A stretch of 37,261 nt of DNA, from positions 1 through 37,261 of the IMG/VR virus record IMGVR_UViG_3300046674_000295. One strand, 5' to 3'. The notes beneath the pieces were generated by a model. The model worked only from the letters and a program-made list of their open reading frames with translations, ran no database searches and had not been told where the DNA came from. How positions within the stretch are numbered: the first letter of the stretch is position 1; each line of letters starts with the position of its first letter. This document shows positions 8,313-22,485 of the stretch, piece by piece. The stretch comes from a virus. The position numbers were made by a program, and so were the translations under genes.

Positions 8313-8747
8313 TCAGCCGGTGTGGTCGTCTTCCGGCGGAACGATGCTGTCGATGAACGCCAGGAGCCTGGCTCGCTGCTCTTCCGGGAGCCTGTCGAGC
8401 TTGCGCACGTAGGCGACGCTCACCGCCGACCCGGCTCCGGAGCGCAGCGGATCCCTGCCGTGGAACTGTGAGCCGGCCGCATCCTGGAGTGCCTCCACCG
8501 GTAGATCGGCTGCGGCGGCAAGGGCGCAAAGCTCTTCGTATTCAGGTGACTTGACGGGCTCCCCCGTCTCCAGCCGGAAGATCCATCCGCGCTTCACAAC
8601 GGTCCCAGTCACGGGATCCACAGCCCTCGCCGCGAACGCGTCCAGGCTGAGATTCAGCTCGCTGCGACGCCGGCGGATCAAGTCCGCGAAAGCGGTCCGC
8701 CGTTCAGGGGTCTGGGTCGTATCGTCCCGGTCTGCCATGGGGGTCAT
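8313..8747 (-). CDS. XRE-family phage repressor (immunity candidate)
   Basis: This 144-residue protein starts at the ATG at 8747, which follows AGGAGTGGCAGG; an upstream start at 8765 is less likely. An XRE helix-turn-helix occupies about residues 18-85 (FADLIRRRRSELNLSLDAFAARA...KRGWIFRLETGE...EELCALAAAADLPVEAL), with an unusual insertion, DPVTGTVV, between helices 2 and 3. The C-terminal 40 residues (YVRKLDRLPEEQRARLLAFIDSI) form a helix that may dimerise. It has no LexA/CI-type peptidase domain, so induction would not be by self-cleavage. It is divergent from a Cro-like gene across a 270-base region with GTTCAG palindromes, the layout of a lysis-lysogeny switch. Confidence 0.75.
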   Translation of the reverse strand: MTPMADRDDTTQTPERRTAFADLIRRRRSELNLSLDAFAARAVDPVTGTVVKRGWIFRLETGEPVKSPEYEELCALAAAADLPVEALQDAAGSQFHGRDPLRSGAGSAVSVAYVRKLDRLPEEQRARLLAFIDSIVPPEDDHTG

Positions 8748-8851
8748 CCTGCCACTCCTGTGCACTGAGGTGGGGGTGCGTCCGTTCAGGCCTTGTGCGG
8801 TTCACAGAAACGTACGAGCAGGTCACCGACACCGTTCATCACGATCGCTGA

Positions 8852-10121: not shown

Positions 10122-10351
10122 CCAGCACCACCGTGCGCGCGCGGGAAACCCCGGGCCGCACGGCCTCCGCTCAGCAGATCGACGCCCTGCTGATCGTCGA
10201 CATGGAGGGCCGCCGCGCCCGCTACGACTGCTACCGCCCCGGCTGCCCGCAGCGCCGCGAGGGCCCGGTCTACGGCGTCGAGATTCCGGATTTCGCCCGC
10301 GCCATCAAGACCGAGCACCTCGCCCGGCACCACTACGGGGAGCAGCCTTGA
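10118..10351 (+). CDS. Small hypothetical protein upstream of Prim-Pol
   Basis: The protein has 77 residues if it starts at the TTG at 10118, which overlaps the previous stop; the GTG at 10133 is an alternative. It contains two cysteines close together (YDCYRPGCPQR), a possible half zinc knuckle, and later His residues (EHLARHHYG). This could form a C2H2-like metal site. It overlaps the Prim-Pol start (TTGA), so it is coupled to replication. The function is unknown. Confidence 0.55.
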   Translation: MTSTTVRARETPGRTASAQQIDALLIVDMEGRRARYDCYRPGCPQRREGPVYGVEIPDFARAIKTEHLARHHYGEQP

Positions 10352-13011
10352 CCGACGAGCAGACCCCGGACCTCCGGGCGGCAGCCCGCGAGCTGCACGA
10401 CGCCGGCCTGTGCGTCCTGCCCATCAAAGCCGACGGCACCAAGAAGCCGGCCGTGTCCTGGCTCCCGTACAAGGTCGCCCGCAGCACTCCCGATGAGCAC
10501 GACCAGTGGTTCAACGGCGACCGGCCGCGCGGCATCGCCGTGGTCTACGGCGGCGTCTCCGGGAACGTCGAGATGCTGGAGTTCGAGGGCCTCGCCGTGC
10601 GCGACCACGTCCTCGACGAGGTCACCGAGATCATGGAAGGGTCCGGCCTCGGCGACGTGTGGCAGAGCATCACCACCGGGTGGGCGAGCCAGTCGCCTTC
10701 CGGTGGCGTGCACTACCGGATCCGTGTCGAGGGCGGCGTCGCCGGTAACAAGAAGCTGGCCAGCCGCCTGGCGCGTGAGGATGAGTACAGCGCGGAGGAA
10801 CGACAGCGCGTCGCGGAGAAGCCCAACTCTCGAATCGTGCGCGTCCTCATCGAGACCCGCGGCGAGGGCGGCTACGGACTGGTCGAGCCGTCCGGCGGTC
10901 CGGTCCACGCGTCCGGGCTCCCGTACCTCCGCCTCGCTGGCGGCCCGAGCAGTATCCCGACCCTCGACCCGGACACGCTCGACGCGGTGCACGCCATCTG
11001 CCAGATGGTCGACGCGATGCCTCGCGAGGAGAAGGCGAAGACAGCGCCGCGCCCGAAGCGAGAGCTTCCCGCAGGCACCGTCCGGCCCGGTGACGACTTC
11101 GAGGCCCGCACCGACTGGCCGCAGATCATCGGTGACGAGTTCGATCCGATCTTCACGCGCGGCAACACCACGTACTGGCGGCGCAAGGGGAAGACCCAGG
11201 GGATCTCAGCGACGACCGGCCACGCCGCGGACCGGGACCGGCTGTACGTCTTCACCACCTCGACCACGTTCGAGTCCGAGACGCCCTACGACAAGTTCGC
11301 CGCGTACACCCACCTGACGCAGGGCGGCACCACCACCGAGCACTTCAAGCGCGCCGCCGCCGAGCTGCGAGGGCGAGGATTCGGGACCGACACCCGCCCG
11401 CTCAACCTCGTCTCGCAGCAGCAGCAGCCTCGGCACTTCAGCGACGGATCATCTGCGCTCGACGCCGAGCACGCACCCGACGAGGTAGCAGGAGACGGAC
11501 CCGGTCTGCGCCTCGTCAGCAGCACCCCCGAGCTGGACATCACCAACGAGGCCGACGCACTGGACGGCGTCCTGGGCCTGATGAACGAGGGCCGTCTCCC
11601 GGACCTCTACGCCCGGTCCGGTGGGCCCACGTGGGTCCACAAGGACGACGAGGGCAACCCGACCATGCAGCAGCTCGGCACCGACAACCTGCGGGCCTAC
11701 CTCGCCGAGCACGTCGCCACCTACACGGTCCGCCCCGACCCCATCACCGAGGGGATGAAACACGAGCGCGAGTTGCTCATGCCGAAGACGTGCAGCACGA
11801 TCCTCGGCCGGCGCACGTGGCCGCTGCCTCGGCTGCGCGGCATCGTCACCTCGCCCGTGGTCCGGCCCGACGGGACGCTGCTGCGCGAGCCCGGCTACGA
11901 CCGGGCCACCGGTCTCTACCTTGAGCCTCGCGTGCCGCTGCGCCGTCTCCAGCCCGACGTCACCAGCCAGAGCCTGGAGCGCGCGAAGTCGATCGTCCTC
12001 GGCGACATGCTCGCCGACTTCCCCTGGCAGGAGCCGTCCGACAGGGCTCACTTCCTCGGGGCACTGATCACGCCGATCCTGCGACCGCACTTCTACGGGC
12101 CGACGCCCATGTGGATCCTCACGGCGACCGCTCCGGGCTCGGGCAAGTCGCTGCTGAAGGACATCCTCAAGGCGGCATACGGGATCTCCGAGACCGCCTG
12201 GCCCGAGAACGACACCGAGCTGCGGAAGAGCATCACCACCCAGCTCTACACGACCGGGCAACCGGTCGTCGTCCTCGACAACCTGCCCAACGGGTTCGTG
12301 CTGAAGAGCCCGGTCCTGTCGTCGCTGCTCACCGCCGAGCACTGGGGTGACCGCGTCCTCGGCTCCACCTCTTCGGTGACCATGCCCAACGACCGCGTCT
12401 GGATCGTCACCGGCAACGCCCTGCGCACCGGTGGCGACAACGGACGCCGCGTCATGTGGGTACGCCTGGACCCCAACTGTCCCGACCCCGACCAGCGCGA
12501 CGGCTTCCGCGTGGGAGACCTTCGCCCGTGGCTGCGCGCCAACGCCTCCACGGTCGTGGCCGCCCTCGTCACCATGGTCCGGGCCTGGCTCGCCGCCGGC
12601 GCCCCGACCGAGCGCATCCGTAAGGGCGACTACTCGGAATGGGCCTCCATGGTGGCCGGGCTCCTGGCCTACCTCGGCGTCGAGGGATGGATGGCCGACC
12701 GCGACAAGGCCATCGACCAGGACGACGAGCAGCTGGAGTGGTCGGCGTTCCTTGAGTCCTGGCGGGAGAAGCTCGGCGACCAGGCGCAGACCACGAGCGC
12801 CGTGCTCGGTTCCGTCGCCGACCACGTACCGCGCCACCCGAAGACCGGCGAGATGCCGACCCCGAACGTCCTGGGTGGCTGGCTCAAGAGCCGCGCCGGC
12901 CGGTACTTCGGCACCCACAAGGTGGTCAAGGTCTGGGACGCGCACCGCCGCGCGAACGTCTGGCGCGTCGAGGTCCACGAGCAGCGCGGCACAGGACGGC
13001 ACGAGTCATGA
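10348..13011 (+). CDS. Replication initiator: N-terminal Prim-Pol with C-terminal AAA+ helicase-type ATPase
   Basis: This 887-residue protein starts at TTG. The N-terminus matches bifunctional primase-polymerase domains: AARELHDAGLCVLPIKADGTKKP (about 11-33), an acidic strand MLEFEG (76-81, catalytic position) and SPSGGVHYRI (about 114-123). The C-terminal ATPase has Walker A APGSGKS (about 594-600), Walker B VVVLDNLP (about 637-644) and a sensor-type VWIVTGN (about 683-689), like phage and plasmid D5/RepB-type helicases. Prim-Pol proteins are one of the known AICE replication initiator types. It should prime and unwind DNA at the repeat-rich region directly downstream (13029-13348). Its length suits the two-domain family. 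Confidence 0.85.
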   Translation: MTDEQTPDLRAAARELHDAGLCVLPIKADGTKKPAVSWLPYKVARSTPDEHDQWFNGDRPRGIAVVYGGVSGNVEMLEFEGLAVRDHVLDEVTEIMEGSGLGDVWQSITTGWASQSPSGGVHYRIRVEGGVAGNKKLASRLAREDEYSAEERQRVAEKPNSRIVRVLIETRGEGGYGLVEPSGGPVHASGLPYLRLAGGPSSIPTLDPDTLDAVHAICQMVDAMPREEKAKTAPRPKRELPAGTVRPGDDFEARTDWPQIIGDEFDPIFTRGNTTYWRRKGKTQGISATTGHAADRDRLYVFTTSTTFESETPYDKFAAYTHLTQGGTTTEHFKRAAAELRGRGFGTDTRPLNLVSQQQQPRHFSDGSSALDAEHAPDEVAGDGPGLRLVSSTPELDITNEADALDGVLGLMNEGRLPDLYARSGGPTWVHKDDEGNPTMQQLGTDNLRAYLAEHVATYTVRPDPITEGMKHERELLMPKTCSTILGRRTWPLPRLRGIVTSPVVRPDGTLLREPGYDRATGLYLEPRVPLRRLQPDVTSQSLERAKSIVLGDMLADFPWQEPSDRAHFLGALITPILRPHFYGPTPMWILTATAPGSGKSLLKDILKAAYGISETAWPENDTELRKSITTQLYTTGQPVVVLDNLPNGFVLKSPVLSSLLTAEHWGDRVLGSTSSVTMPNDRVWIVTGNALRTGGDNGRRVMWVRLDPNCPDPDQRDGFRVGDLRPWLRANASTVVAALVTMVRAWLAAGAPTERIRKGDYSEWASMVAGLLAYLGVEGWMADRDKAIDQDDEQLEWSAFLESWREKLGDQAQTTSAVLGSVADHVPRHPKTGEMPTPNVLGGWLKSRAGRYFGTHKVVKVWDAHRRANVWRVEVHEQRGTGRHES

Positions 13012-13028
13012 CGGCCGCCGCGCGTGAC

Positions 13029-13348
13029 GCAGGGAGTGCAGGGACCTGGCAGGGACCTGTGCAGGGACTTCCCCGCCTCCCTGCACAGGGCCTGGTCTGC
13101 GATGACGCAGGGAGGCGGGGAGTTGCGGGGAGTTCACGCCGCCCCCCTTACAGCGCGCGCGTCTCACATGCATCGCACACCACATCTGCGGTGTGGATCT
13201 CTCGACGATTCCGCCGGACCTCTCACCACGTAAGCCCATAGCTAACTCCCTGCAACTCCCTGCCTCCCTGCAAAACCGCAAATCAACGGCACAGCTACCT
13301 GACGCGGGACTCCCTGCACGCCTCCCGCCAAGTCCCTGCACTCCCTGC
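13029..13348. repeat. Putative replication origin: 12 copies of GCAGGGA
   Basis: This 367-base gap has no credible gene. GCAGGGA occurs directly at 13029, 13038, 13049, 13061 and 13107, and inverted (TCCCTGC) at 13078, 13247, 13257, 13265, 13311, 13333 and 13342 (first bases given). The left cluster is mostly direct and the right cluster all inverted, so they face each other across a less GC-rich centre (13145-13240). Copies are 8-12 bases apart within clusters. Iterons beside a replication initiator are the usual hallmark of an origin. Iteron binding by the Prim-Pol is inferred. Confidence 0.7.
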
Positions 13349-13378
13349 AAAAGCCCAGCAACCGAACCGAGGTGAACC

Positions 13379-15013
13379 ATGAACGCCACCACCATCGCCG
13401 CACCCGCGACCTTCACCCCCCGCCCGTACCAGCTCGACGCCATCGAGGCCCTGCGTAAGGGATGGGCCGACGGCCAGAACCGGTTGGCCGTCGTACTGCC
13501 CACCGGCGCCGGCAAGACCGTCGTGTTCTCCCACCTGGCGCACCAGATGCTCGACGCCCTAGGCGGCCGACGAGTCCTCGTCATCGCCCACCGGGAAGAG
13601 CTGATCGAGCAGGCTGCGGCCAAGCTCTTGGCCGTCGACCCGATGCTGCGGGTCGGCATCGTCAAGGCTCAGCGCGACGACCACCAGGACGCCGACGTGA
13701 TCGTGGCCAGCGTCCAGACCCTGGCCGTACCGCGGCGCCGCGAGGCCATCCGCGACATCGGCCTGATCATCGTCGACGAGTGCCACCACGCCGCCGCCCC
13801 GACGTACATGGAGGTGCTCCGCCACTTCGGCGCCTGGGACGGCGTGCCCGTCGCTGGCTTCACGGCGACGATGACGCGCACCGACGGTGGCCTGGCCGAG
13901 GTCTGGCAGGACGTCGTGTTCCGCCTCGACATCCTCGACATGATCAGCGACGGCTATCTCTGTGACGTCCGGGGCAAGGCCATCACGGTCGACACCCTGG
14001 ACCTGAACAAGGTGAAGACCCGCGGCGGCGACCTGGTCGACAGCCAGCTCGGCAAGGCGCTGGAGGACAGCGGCGCCTTGGACGCCATCGCCAAGGCGTA
14101 CGTGGACCATGCCGCCGATCGGGCGGGCGTCGTCTTCACACCGACCGTGGCGACCGCTCAGCAGGCCGCCGCCGCCCTGACAGCGGTCGGTATCAGCGCG
14201 GCCCCGGTGTGGGGTGACATGGGCCGCGACGAGCGCCGCGCCACCCTCGCCCGGTACGTGGCCGGCGACGTGCAGGTGCTCACCAACTGCATGGTCTTGA
14301 CGGAGGGGTTCGACGCGCCGCACACCTCGTGCATCGTCGTCGCCCGCCCGACCAAGAGCCCCGGCCTCTACGTGCAGATGGTCGGCCGCGGACTGCGACC
14401 GGCGCCCGGCAAGACCGACGCGCTGCTGCTCGACGTCATGGGCGCCGCGTCCCGCCACAAGCTCGCCAGCATGGTCGACCTCACCGAGCGGGAGATCGGC
14501 CCGGCCGAGGAGGGCAAGAGCCTGCGGCAGGTCGCCGAGGAGCACGCCGCCACAGAGCACCGCCGGACGCTGGCCGCGCAGGTCACGGCCGAGGAGATCA
14601 ACCTGTTCGGCGGCTCGTCCATCCGCTGGCTCCGCACGCCCGCCGGTACGTGGTTCATCCGCGTCTCGAACGCGATGGTGCTCTTCCTCGTCCGGGACCC
14701 GGGCTCACGCCTCTACCGGATGCGCCGCTGGACGGCGGAGGCCGGCGTGCAGCCGCCGCGCGAGGACACCGCCCGCCCGCTCGGCGAGGCGCTCGCCTGG
14801 CTGGAGCAGCAGGCCCGCGTCCTGACCCCCGGCGCCTTCGTCGACCGCCGGGCCCGCTGGCGCTCGGGCAAGCCCAGCCCCAAGCAGCTCGGTCTGTGCC
14901 GCCGCCGTGGGATCACCGTCCCTCGCCAGGCCACAGCCGGAGACATCGCCGACCTGATCGACACCGACCACGTGACGTCGGTCCTCGACTCCCTGCTCGC
15001 CCCCGCCGCGTAG
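13379..15013 (+). CDS. SF2 DEAD/DEAH-box helicase
   Basis: This 544-residue protein starts at an ATG preceded by GAGGTGA. The ordered SF2 motifs are PRPYQLDAIEAL (about 14-25), Walker A PTGAGKT (41-47), DECHH (about 132), a GFTATMTR-type motif III, TEGFDAPHT (about 308) and motif VI QMVGRGLRPAPGK (about 332-344). The domain order is like phage UvsW/RecG-related or type III restriction-like helicases, with no nuclease domain visible. The C-terminal 170 residues are specific to this group. It follows the origin-like repeats and the Prim-Pol, so a role in replication fork processing or origin opening is likely. Confidence 0.85.
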   Translation: MNATTIAAPATFTPRPYQLDAIEALRKGWADGQNRLAVVLPTGAGKTVVFSHLAHQMLDALGGRRVLVIAHREELIEQAAAKLLAVDPMLRVGIVKAQRDDHQDADVIVASVQTLAVPRRREAIRDIGLIIVDECHHAAAPTYMEVLRHFGAWDGVPVAGFTATMTRTDGGLAEVWQDVVFRLDILDMISDGYLCDVRGKAITVDTLDLNKVKTRGGDLVDSQLGKALEDSGALDAIAKAYVDHAADRAGVVFTPTVATAQQAAAALTAVGISAAPVWGDMGRDERRATLARYVAGDVQVLTNCMVLTEGFDAPHTSCIVVARPTKSPGLYVQMVGRGLRPAPGKTDALLLDVMGAASRHKLASMVDLTEREIGPAEEGKSLRQVAEEHAATEHRRTLAAQVTAEEINLFGGSSIRWLRTPAGTWFIRVSNAMVLFLVRDPGSRLYRMRRWTAEAGVQPPREDTARPLGEALAWLEQQARVLTPGAFVDRRARWRSGKPSPKQLGLCRRRGITVPRQATAGDIADLIDTDHVTSVLDSLLAPAA

Positions 15014-15070: not shown

Positions 15071-16153
15071 ATGATCGTGGACCTGTTCGCCGGCCCCCGC
15101 GGCTGGACCGAGGGACTCACCCAACTCGGCCTCGCTGACGTCGGCCTGGAGATCGATGCCGATGCTGCCCGCACGTCGCACGCCGCCGGGCACGCGACGA
15201 TCCAGTGCGACGTCACGCAGTACCCGACCGCTCCGTTCGCCAGCCCGCGCGTCAGGGTGATCGGCTCGCCGGTGTGCACGCCCTACTCGCAGGCCGGAAA
15301 GCAGAAGGGTGTCACCGACCTGCCACACGTCCACCAAGCCGTGCACGACCTCGCCCACGGACGAGACACCCGCGCCGTTCTCGCGACCTCCTGCAAGGAC
15401 AAGAAGTCCATCCTCGCCGCGGAGCCCATGCGGTGGCTGTACGACCTGCGCCCCGAGTGGGTGTGTCTGGAGCAGGTGCCCGGAGTGCTGCCGCTGTGGA
15501 AGCAGTACGCCGGGGTACTGCGCGGATGGGGATACAGCACTTGGACCGGCGTGCTGAACGCCGCGGACTGGGGGGTGCCGCAGACACGCAAGCGCGCCAT
15601 CTTGATCGCCTCTCGGGTCCGGTCGGTGACTGCGCCAGCGCCGACGCACGGCGAGCGCACCGAGGTGGATCTGTTCGGTGAGTCGCGTCTGCCGTGGGTG
15701 ACCATGGCCGACACCCTCGGCCTGGAGCCCGGCCTGTGGGTCCGCACCCGCGGCGAGCGCAAGACGTCCGGCGGCAACGAGTGGCCGTGTGACGAGCCTG
15801 CTCGAACGCTGACGGAGAAGGCTCGTTCGTGGTGGGTGCTTCGGCAGGGCAAGCGGTCGAACGCCACCGTGCGCCGGTTGGACCAGCCCGCAGGAACGCT
15901 GGTCGCTGGCCACTCCCGCCACGACTACGTGTGGGTCAAGGTCGACGGCCACGACGACCTTGAGAAGCGCCCGCTTCTCCTCGCCGAGGCCGCGGTCCTC
16001 CAGAGCTTCCGCGCCGACCACCCGTTCCACGGGAGCGAGTCGCGCCGCTTCTTGCAGATCGCCAACGCCGTCCCGCCGCGGCTCGCCGCGCACGTGCTCT
16101 CCGCCGCCACCGGCATCCCGGTGCCCGCCCCCGCTGCCCTCACCGCCGCGTAG
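15071..16153 (+). CDS. DNA (cytosine-5) methyltransferase
   Basis: This 360-residue protein transfers a methyl group from S-adenosylmethionine to C5 of cytosine in DNA. Motif I is DLFAGPRGW (4-12). Motif IV is GSPVCTPYSQAG with catalytic Cys69; the usual Pro before the Cys is Val. Motif VI is LEQVPGVLP with Glu134. Motifs IX-X are seen as AAVLQSFRADHPFHG and QIANAVPPRLAAHV near the C-terminus. No restriction endonuclease lies next to it, so it is a solitary methyltransferase, probably protecting phage DNA from host restriction. The gene is bracketed by two copies of the same 66-68-base spacer, which suggests cassette-like acquisition. Confidence 0.88.
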   Translation: MIVDLFAGPRGWTEGLTQLGLADVGLEIDADAARTSHAAGHATIQCDVTQYPTAPFASPRVRVIGSPVCTPYSQAGKQKGVTDLPHVHQAVHDLAHGRDTRAVLATSCKDKKSILAAEPMRWLYDLRPEWVCLEQVPGVLPLWKQYAGVLRGWGYSTWTGVLNAADWGVPQTRKRAILIASRVRSVTAPAPTHGERTEVDLFGESRLPWVTMADTLGLEPGLWVRTRGERKTSGGNEWPCDEPARTLTEKARSWWVLRQGKRSNATVRRLDQPAGTLVAGHSRHDYVWVKVDGHDDLEKRPLLLAEAAVLQSFRADHPFHGSESRRFLQIANAVPPRLAAHVLSAATGIPVPAPAALTAA

Positions 16154-20385: not shown

Positions 20386-22485
20386 ATGACCGACAGCCTG
20401 ATCAAGCCGCTACAGGAAGCCCCCGAGGACACCCAAGACGCTGCCGCGCGGCAGACCATCCTCGACATCATCCAGAGCGCCGAGCCGCGTCCCGTCGACC
20501 GTCCCGAGCCCGCCGCCGACGGCACCTGGATCGCCGAACGGCAGGCCTACCTCGCCGACGCCCCGCCCGTCGTCCCCACCTTCCTGCGTAACGCTGCCGA
20601 GTTCGTCAACGCCGCTCGCTGGACCGCTTCGTACTACGGGCACGTCACCGCCTTCCACGCCATCCGCCTGCCCGTCTACGCCCTGCGCCTGCTCACCCGC
20701 GCGCCCCGCGGCCTCGCCCGCATGGTCCTGCGCTGGGGCAAGTGGGTCGCCGACACCGAGGCCCGGCCCGTCGAAGCCAAGGCCGCCGCGTCCGCAGACA
20801 TCGACGCCTGGCTCACCCTGTCCCGCGAGCACTCCCGCCGCTGCCGCCCGCGCCGCATCGCCTCCCTGGCCGTCGCCACGACCACCGGCATCACCACGCT
20901 GGCCGGCTGCTTCCTGGCCCCCGGCTGGACGCTCACCGCCACCCTCGCCGCCACCACCCTCGTCGGCCTCAACGGCAAGAAGCGCGACGGGAAGCCGCTG
21001 GTCACCCGCTACGTCGCGAACAACATCCTGCGCCGCCTCGACTCCACCGAGGTAATCGACGCCCTCGCCGCCATCGGCATCGAGGGCAAGAAGGGCAAGC
21101 GGGGCGTCGAGTTCGCCGCCGAGGTCATGCGCGACGGGCCCGGGTGGCGCGCCGAGGTTGACCTGCCGCCCGGCATCGAGGCCACCGCCGTCATGGAGAA
21201 GCGGGCCGCGCTTGCCGCGGCCATGCGACGCCCCATCTCCACGGTGTGGCCTTCGGCCGACCGCACCGCCCACCCCGGGCGCCTCGTGCTGTGGGTCGCC
21301 CAGCGCGACCCGTCCAAGGCTGGCCGGAAGCTGTGGCCGCTCATGAAGGACGGCCAGGCCGACGTGTACGAGCCGCTGCCGTACGGCTTCGACCCGCGCG
21401 GCAACCTCATCGAGATCACGCTCATGTACTCGAACCTGCTGGTCGGCGGCATCCCTGGCTCGGGTAAGACCTCGTGCGCGCTCGCCATCGTCCTCGGCGT
21501 CGCGTTGGACCCCACCGCCGAACTATGGATCTACGAACTGAAGGGATCGGGCGACCTCGACTCCGTCAAGCCGGTCTGCCACCGCTACGTGTCTGGCGAC
21601 GAAGACGAGGACCTGGAGGCCGCCCTCGGCGGGATGCGGTCCGGCATCGCCGAGTACCAGCGGCGCGCCAAGTTCATCAAGTCCCTGCCCGCGTCCGAGG
21701 TGCCCGACGGCCGCCGCGTCACCCGCGCGCTCGCCGAGAAGTACCCCGAGCAGCAGCTGGGCCCCCGCGTCATCGTCATCGACGAGGTACAGGAGCTGTT
21801 CACCCACGCCGATTACAAGGACGAGGCCGGCGCTCTGGCCACCCGCCTCATCAAGAAGGGCCGCGCATACGGCCTCATCCTCATCCTGCTCACCCAGAAC
21901 CCGGACGCTCCGTCCCTGCCGTCGTCCGTGTCCAGCAGCGTCGGCACACGCCTGTGCCTGGCCGTCATGGACTGGCGCGCCAACAACAACGTGCTGGGCA
22001 CCGGCGCTTACGACCGCGGCCTGCGGGCCACGGACATCAGCATCGACGAGCAGGGCACCGGCATCCTCGCCCGCGGCCGCGAAGGCATCACCGTGAGGGC
22101 CGCGTTCATCAAGCAGACCGAGGCCGAGGACATCGGCAAGCGCGCCCTGGCGCTGCGCATGGCGGCTGGCACCCTCACCGGGCAGGCAGTCGGCGCGCAG
22201 GTCGAGGAGCAGGACGTCGAGACGGTCGTCGACCACCTGCGCGGGATCTGGCCGGACGGAGTCGAGACGGTCCACTCGCACCGGCTCGTCGAGGCCCTGG
22301 CCGCATACCGGGCCGACCTGTACCGGCCGTGGCTCGACATGGACGCCGCCGGGGCCTCCACCGCGCTGAGCGCCGCCCTGAAGCCGTTCAAGGTGTCCAC
22401 CCGGCAGCTCACGATCCGGGAGTGCTGCGGCGGCGCGAAGGGCCTTCGGTACGCCGATCTGCCCGTCGCCGAAGACGCCGAGTAG
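20386..22485 (+). CDS. traB: FtsK/TraB-family DNA translocase (Streptomyces-type conjugative transfer)
   Basis: This 699-residue protein starts at an ATG with GGAGAG upstream. The N-terminal part has hydrophobic helices near 80-110 and 160-190 (GITTLAGCFLAPGWTLTATLAATTLVGL) that should anchor it. The motor domain has Walker A GGIPGSGKTS (about 352-361), Walker B RVIVIDEVQEL (about 461-471), and LILLTQNP plus SSVGTRLCLAV typical of FtsK/SpoIIIE/TraB. The C-terminal 60 residues (LKPFKVSTRQLTIRECCGGAKGLRYADL) look like the winged helix that recognises clt repeats in TraB. In Streptomyces, TraB alone moves double-stranded plasmid DNA between mycelia. It lies downstream of Spd-like genes and just before a repeat-rich hairpin. 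A chromosome FtsK would be larger and have a different gamma domain. Confidence 0.8.
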   Translation: MTDSLIKPLQEAPEDTQDAAARQTILDIIQSAEPRPVDRPEPAADGTWIAERQAYLADAPPVVPTFLRNAAEFVNAARWTASYYGHVTAFHAIRLPVYALRLLTRAPRGLARMVLRWGKWVADTEARPVEAKAAASADIDAWLTLSREHSRRCRPRRIASLAVATTTGITTLAGCFLAPGWTLTATLAATTLVGLNGKKRDGKPLVTRYVANNILRRLDSTEVIDALAAIGIEGKKGKRGVEFAAEVMRDGPGWRAEVDLPPGIEATAVMEKRAALAAAMRRPISTVWPSADRTAHPGRLVLWVAQRDPSKAGRKLWPLMKDGQADVYEPLPYGFDPRGNLIEITLMYSNLLVGGIPGSGKTSCALAIVLGVALDPTAELWIYELKGSGDLDSVKPVCHRYVSGDEDEDLEAALGGMRSGIAEYQRRAKFIKSLPASEVPDGRRVTRALAEKYPEQQLGPRVIVIDEVQELFTHADYKDEAGALATRLIKKGRAYGLILILLTQNPDAPSLPSSVSSSVGTRLCLAVMDWRANNNVLGTGAYDRGLRATDISIDEQGTGILARGREGITVRAAFIKQTEAEDIGKRALALRMAAGTLTGQAVGAQVEEQDVETVVDHLRGIWPDGVETVHSHRLVEALAAYRADLYRPWLDMDAAGASTALSAALKPFKVSTRQLTIRECCGGAKGLRYADLPVAEDAE

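Follow-up and report, generated by a model that had tools for sequence, protein, structure and literature searches.

A mirrored iteron array 3' of a Prim-Pol helicase gene is the probable replication origin of a temperate Streptomyces phage

What is the function of a dense cluster of a single 7 bp word lying between two replication genes of a viral genome, and which protein reads it? The DNA analysed here, referred to as the window, is the 37,261 nt stretch of IMG/VR virus record IMGVR_UViG_3300046674_000295. The initial annotation drew attention to positions 13029-13348, where it counted twelve copies of GCAGGGA in 320 bases, and an exact motif scan of both strands recovered the same twelve. 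Dinucleotide shuffling predicted about 0.07 copies per 320 bp, in line with the earlier estimate of far fewer than one, and the 23 copies found in the whole window compare with 8.3 in shuffled sequences (0 of 100 shuffles reached 23). The array is the top-ranked 7-mer cluster of the window, with no other comparable. Three variant copies, GCGGGGA, also lie inside the array and had been left out of the original count. As described previously, the array adjoins a Prim-Pol/AAA+ gene and a helicase gene: it fills the 367 bp gap between the stop codon of the former (10348-13011, plus strand) and an SF2 helicase gene (13379-15013, plus strand, ResIII/Helicase_C).

The array consists of two halves that are mirror images of each other, in register nearly to the base. 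The left half-array (13029-13131, plus strand) reads + + + + - (+ + +), with GCAGGGA at 13029, 13038, 13049, 13061, 13078 (minus strand) and 13107, followed by GCGGGGA at 13115 and 13125; an extra GCGGGGA is present at 13070 on the minus strand. The right half-array (13247-13348) carries GCAGGGA at 13247, 13257, 13265, 13311, 13333 and 13342, all on the minus strand, so that the clusters were correctly described as mostly direct on the left and wholly inverted on the right. Counted from the outer end, the sites of the left half start at 0, 9, 20, 32, 49 (inverted), 78, 86 and 96, and those of the right half at 0, 9, 19 (degenerate), 31, 77, 85 and 95. The inverted single copy of the right half, kept in the related loci L006-L008, has been lost in the window, and two of the three GCGGGGA variants stand in mirror register. 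The centre between the half-arrays (13137-13243) is a candidate unwinding place. At 64% GC it is poorer in GC than the left arm (72%) or the window as a whole (70%), though not poorer than the right arm (62%), and the earlier description of a less GC-rich centre is only partly borne out.

The array lies directly downstream of the gene for its putative initiator, an 887 aa protein composed of a Prim-Pol domain (residues 15-193; PF09250, E=3.6e-7), a D5/SF3-like AAA+ helicase (residues ~392-790) and a C-terminal winged helix (residues 793-878, codons 12724-12981 on the plus strand). An AF2 model of residues 392-887, built with 25 sequences, had a pLDDT of 84.8 and a pTM of 0.80. In Foldseek and VIA comparisons this model resembled D5/E5, the SaPI5 primase-helicase and the C-terminal region of NrS-1 (VIA Z of 13.6 to the SaPI5 primase-helicase and 13.7 to D5; Foldseek E of 2.8e-7 to 7ola_A), with the winged helix at its end. 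The model of the full 887 aa, built with eight close sequences, reached a pLDDT of 35, and its C-terminal domain alone was usable. The sole matches in a sequence-profile search of solved structures, designed 'Cake' proteins, covered a 25-residue stretch and were taken as chance.

The closest parallel is plasmid pWTY27, in which the iteron directly 3' of repA is essential for replication and is bound by RepA, which footprints the inner repeat pairs; a 300 bp region supports replication, a 149 bp inner part does not, and replication is bidirectional (PMC3583192). The AAA+ part of the window protein (residues 392-861) is 47% identical to RepA, and the Walker A motif and the winged helix align. 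In our reading, the repeats that immediately follow repA in pWTY27 run ++-++ / --+--, with the word GTGGGAA. Facing clusters of a single word directly 3' of an initiator gene, which the initial annotation regarded as an unfamiliar pattern for AICEs, were already published in 2012 (PMC3583192). Both systems have a homologous AAA+ initiator with a Prim-Pol partner, iterons directly 3' of the initiator gene, facing half-arrays of one word and a CTGACCTGCG element on both sides. They differ in word (GTGGGAAC in pWTY27, GCAGGGA in the window) and in array length (~230 against 320 bp), and the inverted single copy is found in each half in pWTY27 but only in the left half in the window. Prim-Pol (RepB) and helicase are separate genes in pWTY27, whereas in the window they are fused, with PF09250 in the same protein; the second element is intact in pWTY27 and degenerate in the window, and pWTY27 is a conjugative plasmid while the window is a temperate phage.

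The putative window origin is also structurally akin to the self-loading helicase origins of SaPI and SCCmec. In SaPI Rep and SCCmec Cch2, the C-terminal domain reads iterons directly downstream of the protein's own gene (PMC7581432). The D5/SF3-like helicase fold, the directly downstream iterons and a primase that is either fused (as in SaPI5 Rep) or adjacent are shared (PMC7581432), and the C-terminal winged helix of the window protein is a candidate counterpart of their DNA-reading domain, but there is no close sequence relation, the words and layouts are different, the hosts are Staphylococcus and Cch2 has only a few iterons. In PMC3218068, the replication module of AICEs such as SLP1 (SCO4617-SCO4618) likewise comprises a Prim-Pol gene followed by a RepPP-type replication gene, and pWTY27 is counted among excised AICEs; a term search of that paper found no origin layout. 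The window differs from AICE RepPP elements in having virion genes.

The array had initially been placed in an AICE context. The integrase, Rep/Prim-Pol and FtsK-type Tra genes of AICEs are all present in the window, but AICEs are conjugative and without a virion module, whereas the window carries terminase and major capsid genes (PHROGs). A tyrosine integrase, a helix-turn-helix regulator and a cytosine methylase are also encoded. The nearest complete relative is the circular 34,477 bp plasmid NZ_CP108372.1 of Streptomyces sp. NBC_01335, a phage-plasmid with terminase, portal, protease, capsid, tape measure and integrase genes. Its array lies between the Prim-Pol and helicase genes, with the SF2 helicase gene again directly following, beside the terminase, portal and capsid genes. 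For relative L012, the annotation lists portal, protease, capsid and tape measure genes. Given the virion genes of the record, and a circular phage-plasmid as the closest relative sequenced in full, the window element is a temperate Streptomyces phage and not an AICE. Other relatives (G085 and G313) sit in multi-megabase contigs, and integrated copies therefore also exist; given the tyrosine integrase of the window, origin activity may be confined to infection or to the time after excision. The title of one further contig, that of a related element (L011, Streptomyces sp. DH37, 37.8 kb), gives cov_573, a high coverage that might reflect a multicopy phage-plasmid, and concerns that one contig only. 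Within the window, the replication module's helicase gene is directly followed by a gene for a C-5 cytosine methylase (15071-16153), and an FtsK/SpoIIIE-like translocase gene (20386-22485; phrog_1358, PF01580), possibly AICE-derived, is found within what is a tailed-phage genome.

Examination of the sequence immediately downstream of 40 related AAA+ genes revealed a significant array (equalled in 0-1 of 200 shuffles) at 31 of the 40 loci, some of which are near-duplicates. Arrays were weak or absent 3' of L020, L021, L040, L041, L045, L051 and L055, and the absence of an array at L020, L021 and L051, despite their related AAA+ genes, speaks against a general rule; the genes of L036, L039 and L082 are broken or cut short, and the sequence of L054 reads as N. 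Arrays occupy this place in about 30 related prophages. The same place and orientation recur in L004-L012, with the full set of sites, ++++-++ / ---+----, in L006-L008, and in about 30 further viral contigs, most of which have near-identical array offsets. The words include GCAGGGA, GCGGGGA, GTGGGAA, GCGGGGT, CGGGTAC, CTCCGCA, CTACCCG and CATAGTT, among others. Across 16 representatives with 15 different words, 104 of 171 sites had a mirror partner within 1 bp, compared with maxima in 1000 shuffles of 88 (orientation) and 78 (intervals). The layout and its position beside the initiator gene are conserved across lineages that differ in word, and the copies of an array vary in concert, the behaviour expected if a single protein binds them. 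This conservation, together with the characterized homologue in pWTY27, lends strong support to the original proposal that the iterons belong to an origin served by the adjacent initiator. A region in Arthrobacter phage Peas (L013), with eight copies of AGTGACA in mixed orientation at 8562-8783, directly 3' of the Prim-Pol gene and in place of annotated gene 61, is a probable unannotated origin.

Base 3 of the iteron is A or G among window-type loci. The A3 and G3 states are not monophyletic on the initiator tree, forcing at least two changes, and L065, with mostly A3 sites, is nested in a G3 clade. Eight of the 13 residues that discriminate A3 from G3 fall within 800-887, compared with 27% for clade splits (P=0.009), although the independent switches are few and sequence variability in the protein is in any case higher in the winged helix. 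At residue 841, 22 of 23 G3-type rows have Q, whereas A3-type rows have V, A or K; Q is also found at this position in pWTY27, L014 and L038, all of which have G at that base of the word. Residue 868 is K in all 23 G3-type rows, against R or C in A3-type rows. The structural model puts residue 841 close to where the predicted recognition helix begins and 868 at the predicted wing tip. The covariation of base 3 with both residues suggests that the C-terminal winged helix is the likely iteron reader; the motif scan in itself is compatible with other binders as well. The initial annotation had favoured the Prim-Pol part as the repeat binder, but the binder in pWTY27 is the helicase part (RepA), and the covariation points to the C-terminal winged helix.

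We conclude, with a probability of about 0.88, that 13029-13348 is an iteron origin of the pWTY27 type in a temperate Streptomyces phage or phage-plasmid, operating as follows. The winged helix of the initiator would read each GCAGGGA, and the mirrored half-arrays would hold AAA+ rings in opposite directions, facing each other across the ~110 bp centre. The centre duplex would then open, two helicase rings would load, and the fused Prim-Pol domain would prime both strands, so that the excised circle would replicate bidirectionally by the theta mode. Everything in this scheme that comes after docking is modelled on the bidirectional replication of pWTY27 and on the self-loading helicases of SaPI and SCCmec (PMC7581432). 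None of the DnaA box 9-mers searched for was found anywhere in the window. Cumulative GC skew, which had been proposed as a check, showed no turn at the array and is uninformative. The origin type itself was already known from pWTY27; the conserved mirror layout, the predicted reader and the second element described below are new. On this reading, an origin type characterized so far in one plasmid extends to a widespread group of Streptomyces phages and phage-plasmids, and a portable pair of origin and initiator becomes available. How Prim-Pol helicases select an origin and open it would become a testable matter of two residues (841 and 868) and one invariant paired element.

Other roles for the repeats were weighed against this origin reading. 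In one alternative, the inverted halves form a long hairpin or cruciform recognized by the initiator, in the manner of the stem-loop (IR2) recognition suggested by the authors of the pWTY27 study (PMC3583192), or act as a structured RNA within the prim-pol/helicase transcript. The plus strand does fold far better than its shuffles (z = -8.3), and a stem could arise locally from the pair 13061/13078, whose two arms changed jointly in L010. However, strong folding is expected of any facing repeat. Pairing of the spacers between mirrored sites was about 0.43-0.65 against 0.40-0.50 in controls, a slight excess, and at mixed-word loci mirrored copies were of the same variant in 41 of 70 cases, with 45.7 expected. 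Selection for hairpin pairing of the arms is therefore unsupported; with spacers that are hardly complementary and mirrored variants unmatched beyond chance, reading of duplex sites is favoured over the stem-loop model. Rfam gave sub-threshold matches only, with none at the gathering score, and a promoter/terminator scan found no terminator-like site. We consider a folded-structure role unlikely.

In another alternative, the FtsK/TraB-like translocase would read the array as a conjugative clt/TRS locus. That protein does belong to the FtsK/SpoIIIE family (PF01580, 28 bits against a cut-off of 24), and Streptomyces plasmid transfer proteins read short repeats, as TraA of pWTY27 binds its own clt; in pWTY27, however, clt lies apart from the repA-adjacent array and has a different word (TGACACC), and it is this array that constitutes the replication iteron (PMC3583192). 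Moreover, the arrays examined follow initiator genes, the window array being ~7 kb from the FtsK-like gene, and NZ_CP108372.1 keeps the whole array, yet gave no tblastn match to the FtsK-like protein. A transfer locus is extremely improbable. The iterons of iteron plasmids often double as copy-control sites, and this general precedent would allow incompatibility/copy-number or transcriptional control to be the main role of the array, with the start of replication located elsewhere. Such a role is very doubtful, given that no second 7-mer cluster of similar strength is present in the window or in NZ_CP108372.1, that no sigma-70-like promoter was found at 12900-13500 and that the homologous region is needed for pWTY27 replication (PMC3583192).

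Besides the iterons, arrays of unrelated words have in common a second mirrored element, CTGACCTGCGG (consensus TGACCTGCG), which also occurs at loci with unrelated iteron words such as L056 and L089. Its exact core, TGACCTGC, was found in 24 copies in 33 array regions, against 0.6 in shuffles, one in upstream coding stretches and three after arrays. In pWTY27 and several others there is one CTGACCTGCGG copy per strand, beside the inner clusters; in L019 the orientation of the element is reversed. After conversion of the positions given in PMC3583192, the pWTY27 element falls immediately outside the RepA footprint. In the window both copies are degenerate relative to the consensus: the left copy, TGGTCTGCG, is at 13093-13101 on the plus strand, and the right copy, TGATTTGCGG, reads on the minus strand at 13276-13285. 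We tentatively speculate that these origins carry two separable mirrored codes, the iterons, which change quickly and would be read by the winged helix, and an invariant CTGACCTGCGG pair, one per strand and flanking the RepA footprint in pWTY27, which might provide Prim-Pol priming starts or a host-factor site and so fix where the two forks begin. The ssiA/ssiB sites of RSF1010, a pair of priming start sites, are a model for such an element. A CTGACCTGCGG pair is present in L015 (13763-13770 and 13901-13908), and the element occurs in the array regions of L014, L019, L038, L056, L089 and L090.
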